From the NCBI RefSeq assembly GCF_000221185.1, contig NC_015865.1, positions 248,001 through 312,000 on the forward strand: a DNA stretch of 64,000 nt, given 5' to 3'. Within the stretch, counting starts at the first letter, position 1. Every line of letters starts with the position of its first letter. Below the pieces are notes generated by a model. That model made no database searches. It was not told the origin of the DNA and saw only the letters and a program-made list of their open reading frames with translations. This document shows positions 13,328-50,410 of the stretch, piece by piece. Position numbers and translations under genes: made by a program. Origin of the DNA: Thermococcus sp. 4557. Its GTDB lineage: Archaea > Methanobacteriota_B > Thermococci > Thermococcales > Thermococcaceae.

Positions 13328-16027
13328 ATGTCCCTCTTCGAGACGCTCAAGCCCCTCAAGTCCGAGATAGCGAGGGTTCACGTTTTTCCTCCCGCGGAGG
13401 GCGAGTTCGGGGATTTTCGGTTCAGCAACCCCGAGGTAAACGCCCTCCTCGAAGAACTCGGCTTCACCTTATACCGTCATCAGGTCGAGGCCCTCGAGAG
13501 GCTCTACTCGGGAAAAAACGTCGTCGTGACGACGCCAACGGCCAGCGGCAAGAGCGAGATCTTCAGGCTGGCCATCTTTGACTCCTACCTCTCCAACCCC
13601 CGCGCGACGTACCTGCTCATATACCCCACGAGGGCCCTCATAAACAACCAGCTCGAAAAGTTCTCGCTCCAAAACCTTGTCTTCTACCGCCTCACCGGAA
13701 AGCACGTGAGCGCGAGAATCCTGACCGGAGACGTCCCCTGGGAGGAGAGGAGGGAGCTCCTCCGCGAGAAGCCGAGGGTTATCTTCACGACCCCGGACAT
13801 GCTCCACTACAACATTCTGCGGAGATGGCGGGACTACGAGTGGCTCCTCAGGAACCTCCGCTACCTGGTCGTTGACGAGCTCCACGTTTACAGGGGCGTC
13901 TTCGGGAGCAACGCGGCCTATCTCTTCCGCCGCCTAGACTTCAGGCTCAGGCGCCTCGGGGCGAAGCCCCAGATCATAGCGCTCTCGGCAACGCTGAGGA
14001 ACCCAAAGGAGTTCGCGGAGAAGCTCTTCAGGAAGGAATTCGAGCCGGTAAGCGGTGCCACGAATCCGTTCCCACGGAGGTACCTGGTCCTCTTCGAGCC
14101 GAGGAACCTCGACGAGAGGCAGCTGATAAGGAGTGCCATCGAGAGACTCGTCGGTGAGAACATCAAGACGCTGGTCTTCTTCGACAGCAGAAGGGGGACC
14201 GAAAAGCTCCTTCGCTTCCTTCTCAGCTCGCCGGTCTTTCACAGAACGAGCACCTACAAGGGGACCCTGCCCAAGAACGTCCGCTGGGAGATAGAGCGGG
14301 ACTTCAAGGAGGGCAAACTGCTTGTCCTGCTTACAACCAACGCCCTCGAGCTCGGCATAGACATCGGCGACCTCGATGCCGTCATCAACTACGGCATCCC
14401 TCCCGACGGGCTTTTCTCCCTCATCCAGCGCTTCGGCCGGGCCGGAAGGAAGGCCGACAGGGAGGCCCTCAACGCCATAGTCCTCAGAAAGAACGGCCTC
14501 GACTACTATTACAGGGAGCACTTCGACGAGCTCGTTGAGAGGCTCGAGCGGGGAATAATCGAGTACATGCCCGTTAACCTGGAGAACGACCGCATAGCCG
14601 AGAAGCACATCCACTACCTCCTCACCGAGCTGGGAATAGTAGACTGGGACGAGCTTGACGAATTCGAGAGGAAGATAGCCGAGAGGCTCGTCATCGAGAG
14701 GAAGGCAGACCTGAAGAACAATCCGCTCACCTGCAAGCTCGAGATTCGCCTGAGGAAGCCGGCCTTCAGCTACTCGTCACTGAGGACGGCGAGCGATGAG
14801 ACGTTCTTCCTCGTCAAGGACGAGCCCTGGATACGGGGCAAGCTGATGGAGAAGTCCTCGCTCAGGGAGTTGCTCAACTTCATCAACTGGCTCAAGCTCA
14901 AGGGCTACATCATCGAGGAGGTCGATGCCGACGAGTACCACCGCTCGCTCCTCCCGGGGATGGCTTACTTCTCACGGGGAGAGCTCTACATGGCCAGGGA
15001 CAGGCTCTCCCTCGGAAAGTTCCACTTCGTCTTCGCAAGGCAACTTAACCGCTTCTGGGACGTGGAAACCTTCGTGGCCAAGAGGGAGGAAGTCGAGATA
15101 CTGGAGAGCAGGGAGGAGAAAACCTACAGGGGAGTCGAGATAGGCCTCGGTCGGCTGAGGGTCAGGCACGTCTACACCGGATTCGCCGTCAAAGGGGCCG
15201 ATACTGGGAACTACGTCGGTGAGCTGATCAGGTTGAAGGAGGACGGCATCCTGCGCGGCGAGATACACTCCCCGATGACAGGCGAGAGGATCGAGGCCGA
15301 GGAGGACTTCTCGATCCTCAACTGGGAGAAGTTCGCGAAGGTCGAGTTCGAGGAACCCTACATCAGGGAGTTTGAGACCGATGGAATATGGCTCGTTTTC
15401 CCAGATTCGATAAGGGAAGTCACGAGCGAGGAGTTCAGGGAGTTCTTCGATGTGGCCGCCGAGAAGGGCTTTGAGGACCCTGCCTTTACCCTTTACACCA
15501 ACCTCGACCGGAGGAAGCTCTTCCCGCTCTACCTCGGGACGACCACCCACGTCATAAGGAAGGCCATCGGTGACGCCCTCCAGAGGCTCGGAATCAGCGA
15601 TGAAGAGCTGGCCTTCGCGGTGAAGAAGATGGTCGACAGCAAGGACGGAATCGGCTCGGCGCTCCACGCGATAGAGCACAATCTCATAAAGATAGCCCCC
15701 ATCTTCACCTACGTGGATTCGAGGGAGCTCGGCGGCTACAGCTACGCGAGCTTCCCGGGCTTACCCCACGTCGGAAGGCCGGTCGTGTTCATCTACGACG
15801 GCAACGAAGGGGGAGCAGGCCTCGCACCGATAATCTACGAGAACGTCGAGAGGCTGATGGAGAAAAGCCTTGAGCATCTCCGCTCCTGTCCCTGCCAGGA
15901 CGGCTGTCCCGTTTGCACGCTCTCCCCGAAGTGCGGGACCTTCAACGAGTTTCTTGACAAATGGGCCGCGATAAGGGTCTGGGAGAGGGTTCTGGGAGGG
16001 TCTCCCTCTGGGAGCAGGGATGACTGA
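13328..16027 (+). CDS. DEAD/DEAH-box helicase of the MrfA/YprA (DUF1998) type
   Basis: The 899-residue superfamily 2 helicase has Walker A TPTASGKSE (about 65-73), VVDELHVYRG as a DEVH-type motif II, LSATLRNP motif III and QRFGRAGRKADR motif VI. A long accessory region follows. The C-terminal DUF1998-like domain has four cysteines in CPCQDGCPVC and PKCG that would bind zinc. This arrangement matches bacterial MrfA/YprA helicases involved in DNA damage repair, and similar archaeal proteins. A TATA CTTTTTTAG at about 13294-13303 predicts a nearly leaderless transcript beginning just before this ATG. Confidence 0.9.
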   Translation: MSLFETLKPLKSEIARVHVFPPAEGEFGDFRFSNPEVNALLEELGFTLYRHQVEALERLYSGKNVVVTTPTASGKSEIFRLAIFDSYLSNPRATYLLIYPTRALINNQLEKFSLQNLVFYRLTGKHVSARILTGDVPWEERRELLREKPRVIFTTPDMLHYNILRRWRDYEWLLRNLRYLVVDELHVYRGVFGSNAAYLFRRLDFRLRRLGAKPQIIALSATLRNPKEFAEKLFRKEFEPVSGATNPFPRRYLVLFEPRNLDERQLIRSAIERLVGENIKTLVFFDSRRGTEKLLRFLLSSPVFHRTSTYKGTLPKNVRWEIERDFKEGKLLVLLTTNALELGIDIGDLDAVINYGIPPDGLFSLIQRFGRAGRKADREALNAIVLRKNGLDYYYREHFDELVERLERGIIEYMPVNLENDRIAEKHIHYLLTELGIVDWDELDEFERKIAERLVIERKADLKNNPLTCKLEIRLRKPAFSYSSLRTASDETFFLVKDEPWIRGKLMEKSSLRELLNFINWLKLKGYIIEEVDADEYHRSLLPGMAYFSRGELYMARDRLSLGKFHFVFARQLNRFWDVETFVAKREEVEILESREEKTYRGVEIGLGRLRVRHVYTGFAVKGADTGNYVGELIRLKEDGILRGEIHSPMTGERIEAEEDFSILNWEKFAKVEFEEPYIREFETDGIWLVFPDSIREVTSEEFREFFDVAAEKGFEDPAFTLYTNLDRRKLFPLYLGTTTHVIRKAIGDALQRLGISDEELAFAVKKMVDSKDGIGSALHAIEHNLIKIAPIFTYVDSRELGGYSYASFPGLPHVGRPVVFIYDGNEGGAGLAPIIYENVERLMEKSLEHLRSCPCQDGCPVCTLSPKCGTFNEFLDKWAAIRVWERVLGGSPSGSRDD

Positions 16028-16036
16028 CTTGGATTT

Positions 16037-16083
16037 TTACATGGGATGTAATTTACACCCCGTGTAATTTACATGGTATGTAA
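16037..16083. repeat. three tandem TTACAY-N3-RTGTAA palindromes, 16-bp period
   Basis: TTACATGGGATGTAA (16037-16051), TTACACCCCGTGTAA (16053-16067) and TTACATGGTATGTAA (16069-16083) follow one another with single T spacers. Their centres at 16044, 16060 and 16076 are exactly 16 bp apart. The array lies in the 60-bp gap between the convergent helicase and IMPACT genes and fills almost all of it. It has no T-run in a terminator position and no TATA box of its own. The symmetry points to binding of dimeric proteins on successive turns of the DNA. Confidence 0.75.
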
Positions 16084-16087
16084 AAAC

Positions 16088-16717
16088 TCAGAGGCTCCCA
16101 TCAAACGAACTCATGAAGAGCCTCCTGAGCCGGACCCTTCCCCTCGTCCTCTCCGTCAAGAGCCCCATCAGCCCCTCGGCTTCGCCTTTCCTCGTTTCGA
16201 CGGTGAACATCACTAGCTCGCCGTAGTCCTCTCCAACGACTTTTCCTCCGGAATTCTCAACGGTCTCCCTGACGAGGTGAAAGAGGCCGTAGGGGAAGGT
16301 GACCTGGAAGTGCTCCGTCTCGTAGACTTCAATAATTCCTGCATTTTCAATGGCCAGACTGGCGGCGTCGCTGTAGGCCTTAACCAGACCGCCGTAGCCG
16401 AGCTTTATGCCGCCGAAGTAGCGGGTAACAACGACGACAACGTTGCTTAATCCCCTGTTCTGGATAACCTTGAGTACTGGCTTTCCCGCACTGCCCTTTG
16501 GCTCCCCGTCGTCATCGTAGCGAACCGCGAAGCTCTTTCCGTCGTTGATGAGGTAAGCCGAAACGTTGTGCGTCGCGTCGCTGTGATGGGCCTTGATTTT
16601 TGCGATGAACTCCTTGGCCTCTTCCTCCGTCTTCGCCGGCGAGGCGTAGCCTATGAAGACCGACTTTTTAATCACCAGCTCAGCAGTTCCGACTCCCTTA
16701 AGCGTTCTGTAGTCCAT
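16088..16717 (-). CDS. IMPACT/YigZ (UPF0029) family protein
   Basis: The 209-residue protein has the family core: KKSVFIGYASP, the HHSDATHNVSAYLI segment, and the signature DDDGEPKGSAGKP followed by NVVVVVTRYFGGIKLGYGGL. The C-terminal part is the ferredoxin-like DUF1949-type region. Members in bacteria are linked to ribosome or tRNA metabolism and in eukaryotes to Gcn1 binding; the archaeal role is unknown. It starts three bases after the stop of the HAD gene, and the two are probably co-transcribed. Confidence 0.88.
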   Translation of the reverse strand: MDYRTLKGVGTAELVIKKSVFIGYASPAKTEEEAKEFIAKIKAHHSDATHNVSAYLINDGKSFAVRYDDDGEPKGSAGKPVLKVIQNRGLSNVVVVVTRYFGGIKLGYGGLVKAYSDAASLAIENAGIIEVYETEHFQVTFPYGLFHLVRETVENSGGKVVGEDYGELVMFTVETRKGEAEGLMGLLTERTRGRVRLRRLFMSSFDGSL

Positions 16718-48999: not shown

Positions 49000-50361
49000 T
49001 CAAACTTCACCCTCAAAAGAAATAAGCCTTTCGAAGTCCTCTAAATCCCATACCAGCCAGCCTTCGGCACTCAAAGCTTCCTTCCCGTTTACCTTCTTTG
49101 CCACAAGACCGTAGCTCTTCTCGTAGTCCTTTAAACCAACGAGCTCTGCTTTCCTCTCCAGATCTTTTAAAATGCCCCTCGCCTCTCTTTTGCTCAGCTC
49201 TTTCCATTTTGCCTCAACAAAGAGCGCCTTTCTTTCCCGCTCGTTCAAAGCCACGAGGTCAATTTCCTCTCCCTTCCTCCACCATTTTCCAACCTTTGTG
49301 AACTTGAAGGGCAGCTTTTCCGCCCGGTTCAGCTCAATTAGGAACTGTCTTGCAATTTTCTCAAAAATTGGGCCAAGGTAGTGGTTATATGCCCCTCGTA
49401 TCTCATTCACGTCAAATATGCCCTCCTCCATGAGTGAGAGGTTCGGGTAAACAAAGCGGAACCAGAAGGCGAGAAAGTTGTCCGCAACGTAGTAGCGGCC
49501 CAGCTTGGAGTTTGGTTTTTCCGTGATGGGAACTTCCCTCACTACTAACCCGGTCTCGATTAAGTTCCTGAGGTATGGGGTTATCTCCGAGTGCTTCATC
49601 CCCGTGAAGTCCCTTATCTCCTTCGGCGTCGTTTTGCCGAGGGCTATTGCCTCAAGTATCCTCCTGTACGTCCTCGTCTCCGTGAACTCGTACCTCAGCA
49701 GGAAATCCACCTCGTCGCGGAAGAAGCTCACTGGGTTCTTCAGCTCCCCCTCAAGCCACTCCCAGAAGGGAAGCCTGACCTGAGCTATGTAGAAGGGAAT
49801 CCCGTCCGTCATGCCGTAGACCTCTACAAGCTCCTTCCAACTGGCATTCGGGAAGAATTCTCTTAGGTGAAAGAACTTTAGGGGTTTGAGCTTCATTGAA
49901 CCAGTTCTCCTGCCATAGAGGGGACTCTTGTAGCTGAGAACCTTCTCGGTCATTATGCTCACCGAAGAGCCAAGGAGAATTAGCTTCGTGTTTGAATTCG
50001 AAAGATCTGTATCAATAACTCTCTGAAACTCGCTTAGAACTCTAGGGTCTTCTTTTATCAAGTTCGGAAACTCGTCAATGACGATGACCTTCCCTCTTAG
50101 GGTGTGGAGGAGGGCCTCCCAGCTTCCACGGGCGTATCTCGCCTCTGGAAAAACCCTCTCTGCGGTCTCCTGAAAGTGCCTCAGGTTATCTCCTTCAATG
50201 GCCAAGTAGTAAACGTGGGGAACGTCTTTCACTGCTTCGAGGACAAGACGGGTCTTCCCAACGCGCCTTCTTCCATAGATGACGATTAGCTCGAAATTCT
50301 CGCTTGAGAGCCGTTCTCTCAGTGCCTTAAGCTCCTCATTCCTATTTACGAACTTGGTCAT
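49000..50361 (-). CDS. archaeal ATPase (ATPase_2) with DUF234 domain
   Basis: The 453-residue protein starts MTKFVNRNEELKALRERL and has Walker A YGRRRVGKTRL, Walker B VIVIDEFPNL, a LLGSS sensor and a winged helix (LEAIALGKTTPKEIRDFTGMKHSE). Its DUF234-like C-terminal nuclease fold contains GEEIDLVALN and LFVEAKW. These proteins are abundant, variable accessory genes in Thermococcales with no settled role. The ATG lies beside tandem TGATAAT palindromes, with the TATA GGCTTAAAG just upstream. It is convergent with the AAA_14 ATPase gene. Its stop is followed by an in-frame open extension. Confidence 0.9.
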   Translation of the reverse strand: MTKFVNRNEELKALRERLSSENFELIVIYGRRRVGKTRLVLEAVKDVPHVYYLAIEGDNLRHFQETAERVFPEARYARGSWEALLHTLRGKVIVIDEFPNLIKEDPRVLSEFQRVIDTDLSNSNTKLILLGSSVSIMTEKVLSYKSPLYGRRTGSMKLKPLKFFHLREFFPNASWKELVEVYGMTDGIPFYIAQVRLPFWEWLEGELKNPVSFFRDEVDFLLRYEFTETRTYRRILEAIALGKTTPKEIRDFTGMKHSEITPYLRNLIETGLVVREVPITEKPNSKLGRYYVADNFLAFWFRFVYPNLSLMEEGIFDVNEIRGAYNHYLGPIFEKIARQFLIELNRAEKLPFKFTKVGKWWRKGEEIDLVALNERERKALFVEAKWKELSKREARGILKDLERKAELVGLKDYEKSYGLVAKKVNGKEALSAEGWLVWDLEDFERLISFEGEV

Positions 50362-50362
50362 G

Positions 50363-50395
50363 TGATAATCACCGTTATGATAATGGTAATTATCA
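50363..50395 (-). promoter_or_regulatory. tandem TGATAAT palindromes at the ATPase promoter
   Basis: Two 18-bp dyads follow each other with 15-bp spacing: TGATAATCACCGTTATGA (50363-50380) and TGATAATGGTAATTATCA (50378-50395), sharing three bases. They lie between the TATA (complement of CTTTAAGCC, about 50397-50405) and the start codon at 50361, so they would cover the transcript start. This is a repressor-type position. Confidence 0.7.
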
Positions 50396-50410
50396 CTTTA
50401 AGCCTTTCGT

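Follow-up and report, generated by a model that had tools for sequence, protein, structure and literature searches.

The window, a 64,000-nucleotide stretch of the Thermococcus sp. 4557 genome, contains a helicase gene and a yigZ gene that converge on a 60-bp gap (positions 16028 to 16087). Three TTACAY-N3-RTGTAA dyads, in which perfect 6-bp arms enclose a 3-bp center, occupy 47 bp of this gap (16037 to 16083) at a period of 16 bp, with a single T between adjoining dyads. The number of dyads, their exact phasing, the one-T spacing, and the convergent intergenic setting were all confirmed from the sequence as the original prediction, based on the letters of the window, had described them; the T5 and A5 tracts on either side of the array are an addition to that description. 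The features of the junction are as follows.

13328 to 16027, + strand: DEAD/Helicase_C/MZB (MrfA-like) helicase gene, 899 amino acids (aa), flanking gene
16034 to 16038, + strand: T5 tract just past the stop of the helicase gene and running into dyad A; possible terminator for transcripts of the + strand
16037 to 16051, no strand assigned: dyad A, TTACATGGGATGTAA
16053 to 16067, no strand assigned: dyad B, TTACACCCCGTGTAA
16069 to 16083, no strand assigned: dyad C, TTACATGGTATGTAA
16082 to 16086, - strand: A5 on the + strand (T5 on the - strand) just past the yigZ stop codon; possible terminator for transcripts of the - strand
16087 to 16096, - strand: mutated BRE/TATA remnant overlapping the yigZ stop, AGCCTCTGAG here versus AACCTTTAAA in relatives (alignment of this genome, G000, with G032, G031, and G049)
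16088 to 16717, - strand: gene for a YigZ/IMPACT (UPF0029) protein, 209 aa, flanking gene

Exact matches to TTACAY-N3-RTGTAA in the 2,011,320-bp genome were limited to these three dyads, and the reversed control pattern had none. When up to two mismatches were allowed, the motif matched 57 times genome-wide and the reversed control 76 times, so that only the exact array stands out. A search for tandem dyads returned the array and one weak chance match in the window and none in five Markov-1 simulated windows. The scan of relatives that had been proposed together with the prediction gave a tandem match in 24 of 61 congeneric genomes, at one place in each, and no match to the reversed control. 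A chance origin was rejected based on uniqueness in the genome, the simulated windows, and the 61-genome scan with its reversed control, and the comparison of sequences lends good support to the prediction that the dyads form an array for a DNA-binding protein. That prediction had been staked on conservation at the same junction in close relatives, where the array does recur in many congeners.

At some of these orthologous yigZ/helicase junctions, a gene for a 376-aa ATPase lies between the array and the helicase gene. Full-length copies of the ATPase (77 to 100% identical to the query) were found in 14 congeners, and a 15th copy, in G034, is frameshifted. The junctions that were read have the array at the start of the ATPase gene, and all but that of G059, in which the ATPase gene is apparently intact and only one dyad is complete, place it between BRE/TATA and the start codon. 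Thirteen aligned promoters shared the order AAC(C)TTTAAAT (BRE/TATA), dyad 1, dyad 2 with the Shine-Dalgarno sequence, and dyad 3 with the ATG. The array of gene-bearing relatives other than G059 therefore overlaps the core promoter and the start codon, and the ATPase N terminus (M-V/G/A-C-K) is encoded within it. The earlier remark that no nearby promoter explains the dyads holds for the present genome and fails for these relatives, where the array forms the promoter, putative operator, and start region of an ATPase gene that is lost here. The centers, which had been described as variable and GC rich, are partly explained as well: in ATPase-bearing genomes, the GGGG(TG) found almost without variation at the center of dyad 2 is the Shine-Dalgarno sequence, with GGGGTG eight bases upstream of the start codon in the 13 aligned promoters. 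On the - strand, ACGGGGTG in dyad B preserves this Shine-Dalgarno-like center.

The same array was also found at the start of ATPase genes at unrelated loci in two more distant genomes (L071, 75% identity; L068, 56%), which indicates that it belongs to the ATPase and not to the locus. In G001, G040, G034, and G023, where other genes separate the array from yigZ, it is the ATPase gene that the array accompanies. Decayed copies, consisting of ATPase pseudogenes or remnants with arrays, were found in G023, G028, and G054, and at another locus of G029 two dyads precede a short relic reading MGCKNFF. Specificity of the motif for the yigZ/helicase junction was rejected, since the array follows the ATPase to other loci. 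At L077 (G024), all that is left of the array is a partial dyad (TTTTTACATCCCAT), and about 400 bp of inserted sequence separate it from the end of the helicase gene. Other genes (including those labeled tpr22 and tpr25, which are labels only) are inserted between yigZ and the helicase gene at L075, L083, L084, L088, L089, L092, L098, and L099, which are the junctions in G040, G023, G001, G034, G011, G042, G009, and G055, and insertions in so many genomes make the junction look like an insertion hot spot.

Outside the genus, single exact motif matches were isolated. Exact matches outside Thermococcales (L066 and L069, both Pseudomonas, and L070, a bacterial metagenome-assembled genome) came without any ATPase match and seem to be unrelated. 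In the two Pseudomonas species, an AT-rich pair of TTACA-N5-TGTAA in tandem lies in similar flanking sequence (L066:6721-6751 and L069:870-900) and is probably unrelated too. A viral origin was rejected after the tandem pattern found no match in the viral_contigs set.

The 376-aa query matched AAA_14 above the cut-off and a winged-helix family below the cut-off, and its score for PF01637 (ATPase_2), 29.4 bits, was below the curated cut-off of 33.2. Profile matches (E about 1e-38) were obtained to PDB entries 2FNA and 2QEN, which are SSO1545/PABY2304-type archaeal AAA+ (STAND-like, PF01637) ATPases. An AF2 model built on an alignment of 23 sequences (pLDDT 88.7) has a winged-helix-like C-terminal region, and its best structural matches were SSO1545 and PABY2304, followed by Orc1/Cdc6 proteins, including DNA-bound forms. 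The family sequence and fold, a Walker motif, and a C-terminal winged helix are all present in the product of the lost gene, with the winged helix reaching a Pfam E value of ≤0.001 in only 5 of the 23 family members. The putative recognition helix is 75% identical to that of the query in L068 (58% overall) and 12 to 19% identical in paralogues with other dyads (32 to 38% overall), so that in this small number of sequences it appears to track the dyad type.

No ATPase ortholog was found in the genome of Thermococcus sp. 4557, where the best relative is just 35% identical. The absence of the ATPase together with the mutated TATA marks the array as an orphan of the putative operator, with no gene of this type left at the site to be controlled. 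Nine genomes are in this orphan state (G000, G046, G012, G036, G008, G043, G010, G045, and G057).

Other ATPase_2 genes of this genome carry palindromes at the corresponding position, but with arms of other sequences (for example, TTACTTGCAAGTAA/TTACTGGTGAGTAA, GTATCGGTACCGATAC/GTATCGGGGGCGATAC, CTTACCCCCGGGTAAG/CTTACGGTGGGGTAAG, and AGTGATGGCCCGTCACT/AGTGATGGGGTGTTCACT), as do those of G023, G036, and G045, each with its own palindromes. One such gene lies in the window, and another carries its dyads at both ends.

49000 to 50361, - strand: second ATPase_2 gene in the window, 453 aa, which served for comparison within the window; a strong match to the PADLOC candidate-defense model PDC-S27 (E = 1.5e-41)
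50362 to 50396, - strand: palindromic leader of the 453-aa ATPase_2 gene, GTGATAATTACCATTATCATAACGGTGATTATCAC, directly before the ATG
G000:C1:1716341-1716375 and 1717468-1717502: CTTAC-N6-GTAAG tandem dyads, with no third tandem copy in the genome

The CTTAC-N6-GTAAG dyads belong to a single ATPase gene, whose promoter has one tandem copy of its own motif and whose 3' end coincides exactly with the other (L034, L219, and L220); the 3'-end array also lies at a convergent junction. Palindromes were scored between TATA and the start codon, and matched neighboring promoters were used as controls. A best dyad arm of ≥6 bp was found in 32 of 36 Thermococcales PF01637 ATPase promoters versus 14 of 60 controls (P = 2e-10), and paired dyads with a shared arm were found in 13 of 36 versus none of 60 (P = 6e-7); orthologous promoters from different genomes were counted separately, which makes these P values somewhat optimistic. 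Clear tandem dyads are not universal, with several ATPase_2 promoters having a single dyad and the L127 promoter having none by the arm-length measure. No comparable palindromes were seen by eye at the ATPase_2 genes of a distant archaeon (G087).

Taken together, the array is probably the operator of a lost gene for a STAND-like AAA+ ATPase of the SSO1545/PABY2304 type with a C-terminal winged helix. In relatives that keep the gene, the three dyads cover the stretch between the TATA edge and the start codon, which lies in the third dyad, and take in the Shine-Dalgarno sequence and the expected transcription start. ATPase dimers would most likely bind neighboring dyads cooperatively via the winged helix, and the bound ATPase would obstruct TBP/TFB and RNA polymerase, repressing its own gene. 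The sequences show the linkage of array and gene, the anatomy of the promoter, gene-specific palindromes across the family, and the loss of the gene here; binding by the ATPase, its cooperativity, and repression are inferred, with indirect support from the modeled winged helix and the putative recognition helix. A winged-helix ATPase encoded directly behind its own, otherwise unique, palindromes points to autorepression. In the present genome, the TATA and the gene are gone and the arms and flanking T-tracts are kept, perhaps for another role at the convergent junction.

The array may instead be a pure relic, in which case the loss of the ATPase would be recent and the dyads would simply not have decayed yet, serving no present function. 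We consider this a real possibility, though not a probable one. The missing ortholog and TATA fit it, as do the frequent shifts between presence and absence (counting all states, 14 changes on the yigZ tree and 21 on the rpoB tree) and the broken dyad in some orphan arrays (G010, G043, and G008). Orphan alleles sharing a junction, however, differed at 1 of 70 arm positions and at 8 of 35 center (remaining) positions (Fisher's exact test, P = 6e-4; nine changes in three pairs, hand-counted from alignments), with fourfold-site divergence of 0.13 to 0.40 in the flanking genes. Three orphan genomes (G043, G046, and G012) also form a supported clade on the rpoB tree, which likewise speaks against recent loss. 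These results suggest, from the sequences of few events, that the array has been under constraint after gene loss. The history of the allele in the present genome is clouded by recombination at the junction (16028 to 16087), which is indicated by a comparison with G032, an incomplete draft genome in which a chimeric contig is possible: YigZ is 97% identical, and fourfold divergence is 0.04 in yigZ versus 0.41 in the helicase gene.

Conservation of the arms in orphan alleles suggests that the orphan could still be in use, possibly at the convergent terminator. One reading, which we regard as possible but rather doubtful, is that the orphan array now serves the helicase and yigZ genes, which converge on it, as a roadblock or as a terminator in both directions. 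Tracts equivalent to T5 and A5 are shared by the orphan alleles and flank the array on both sides, replacing the TATA side, and the CTTAC-N6-GTAAG array at the 3' end of another ATPase gene offers a parallel at a convergent junction. T-tracts alone would suffice for archaeal termination, though, which leaves the conserved inner arms unexplained; moreover, the array is missing at this junction in many congeners, and the RNA is predicted to fold only marginally at 85°C (-0.5 to -1.1 kcal/mol). Within the preferred reading of the array as a former ATPase operator, the most plausible new role for the orphan would be to terminate transcription or to hold a protein roadblock between the helicase and yigZ genes, at lower confidence than the operator itself.

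Regulation of the ATPase gene by a different DNA-binding protein, which would recognize TTACAY-N3-RTGTAA and still bind the orphan, would account for arm conservation without the ATPase. It is unlikely, as each ATPase type has its own dyad and a separate unlinked regulator would be needed for each gene; the genome has no further exact site for such a protein, and the putative recognition helix tracks the dyad (in few sequences). Another regulator that travels with the ATPase gene may also be the binder of the dyads. It is very improbable that the palindromes are RNA hairpins that hide the Shine-Dalgarno sequence in dyad 2 and the ATG in dyad 3, given the pairing-breaking C.A combinations on the coding strand in 8 of 42 dyads of ATPase-associated arrays, a folding energy of about -0.5 kcal/mol at 85°C, and the absence of compensatory arm changes that keep pairing. 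Recognition at the DNA level accounts better than RNA pairing for the C.A and T.G combinations at the Y/R positions, and a structured RNA element was rejected based on these and on an Rfam scan that returned no match.

SSO1545- and PABY2304-type ATPases (2FNA and 2QEN) are both matched by the product of the lost gene in sequence profile, and they occupy the top two places among its structural matches. No operator for this family was found in the literature searched, in which subscription papers were thinly covered, so that this absence is weak evidence; we likewise know of no description of one. AbiEi-type autoregulated antitoxins are winged-helix proteins whose own promoters are said to contain the inverted repeats that they bind. 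They resemble the ATPases in the winged helix, with a Pfam AbiEi_4 match in 3 of the 23 family members, but are not ATPases and belong to a two-gene toxin-antitoxin operon. Archaeal Orc1/Cdc6 proteins with their origin recognition boxes (2QBY and 2V1U) also combine AAA+ and a winged helix on DNA but bind origins rather than promoter palindromes, and were weaker structural matches (rank 3 and below, with a TM-score of about 0.5). A precedent for a STAND ATPase acting at a promoter is the mycobacterial protein IniR, which has an SSO1545-like ATPase domain and a DNA-binding domain and activates the iniBAC promoter, where ChIP-seq was used to test its binding (PMC5760070). IniR differs in activating its target, in having a separate MalT-like sensor and an SdiA-like DNA-binding domain, and in showing neither autorepression nor tandem palindromes. 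Autoregulatory palindromic operators are already known, and the gene-specific sets across an ATPase family and the orphan survivors appear to be new.

A broader and more tentative proposal is that the Thermococcales STAND-like ATPases are paralogues that each have a private palindromic address over their own promoter, and that some addresses persist under constraint after gene loss, as functional sites or as anchors for the exchange of alleles with and without the gene. To our knowledge, there is no agreement on what the expanded ATPase families of archaea do. If true, one private palindromic operator per gene, placed between TATA and the start codon, would make the regulation and DNA specificity of these ATPases directly testable, and orphan operators would reveal lost genes. 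Since the 453-aa ATPase_2 gene in the window matches the candidate anti-phage defense model PDC-S27, the same rule may bear on the silencing of such systems.
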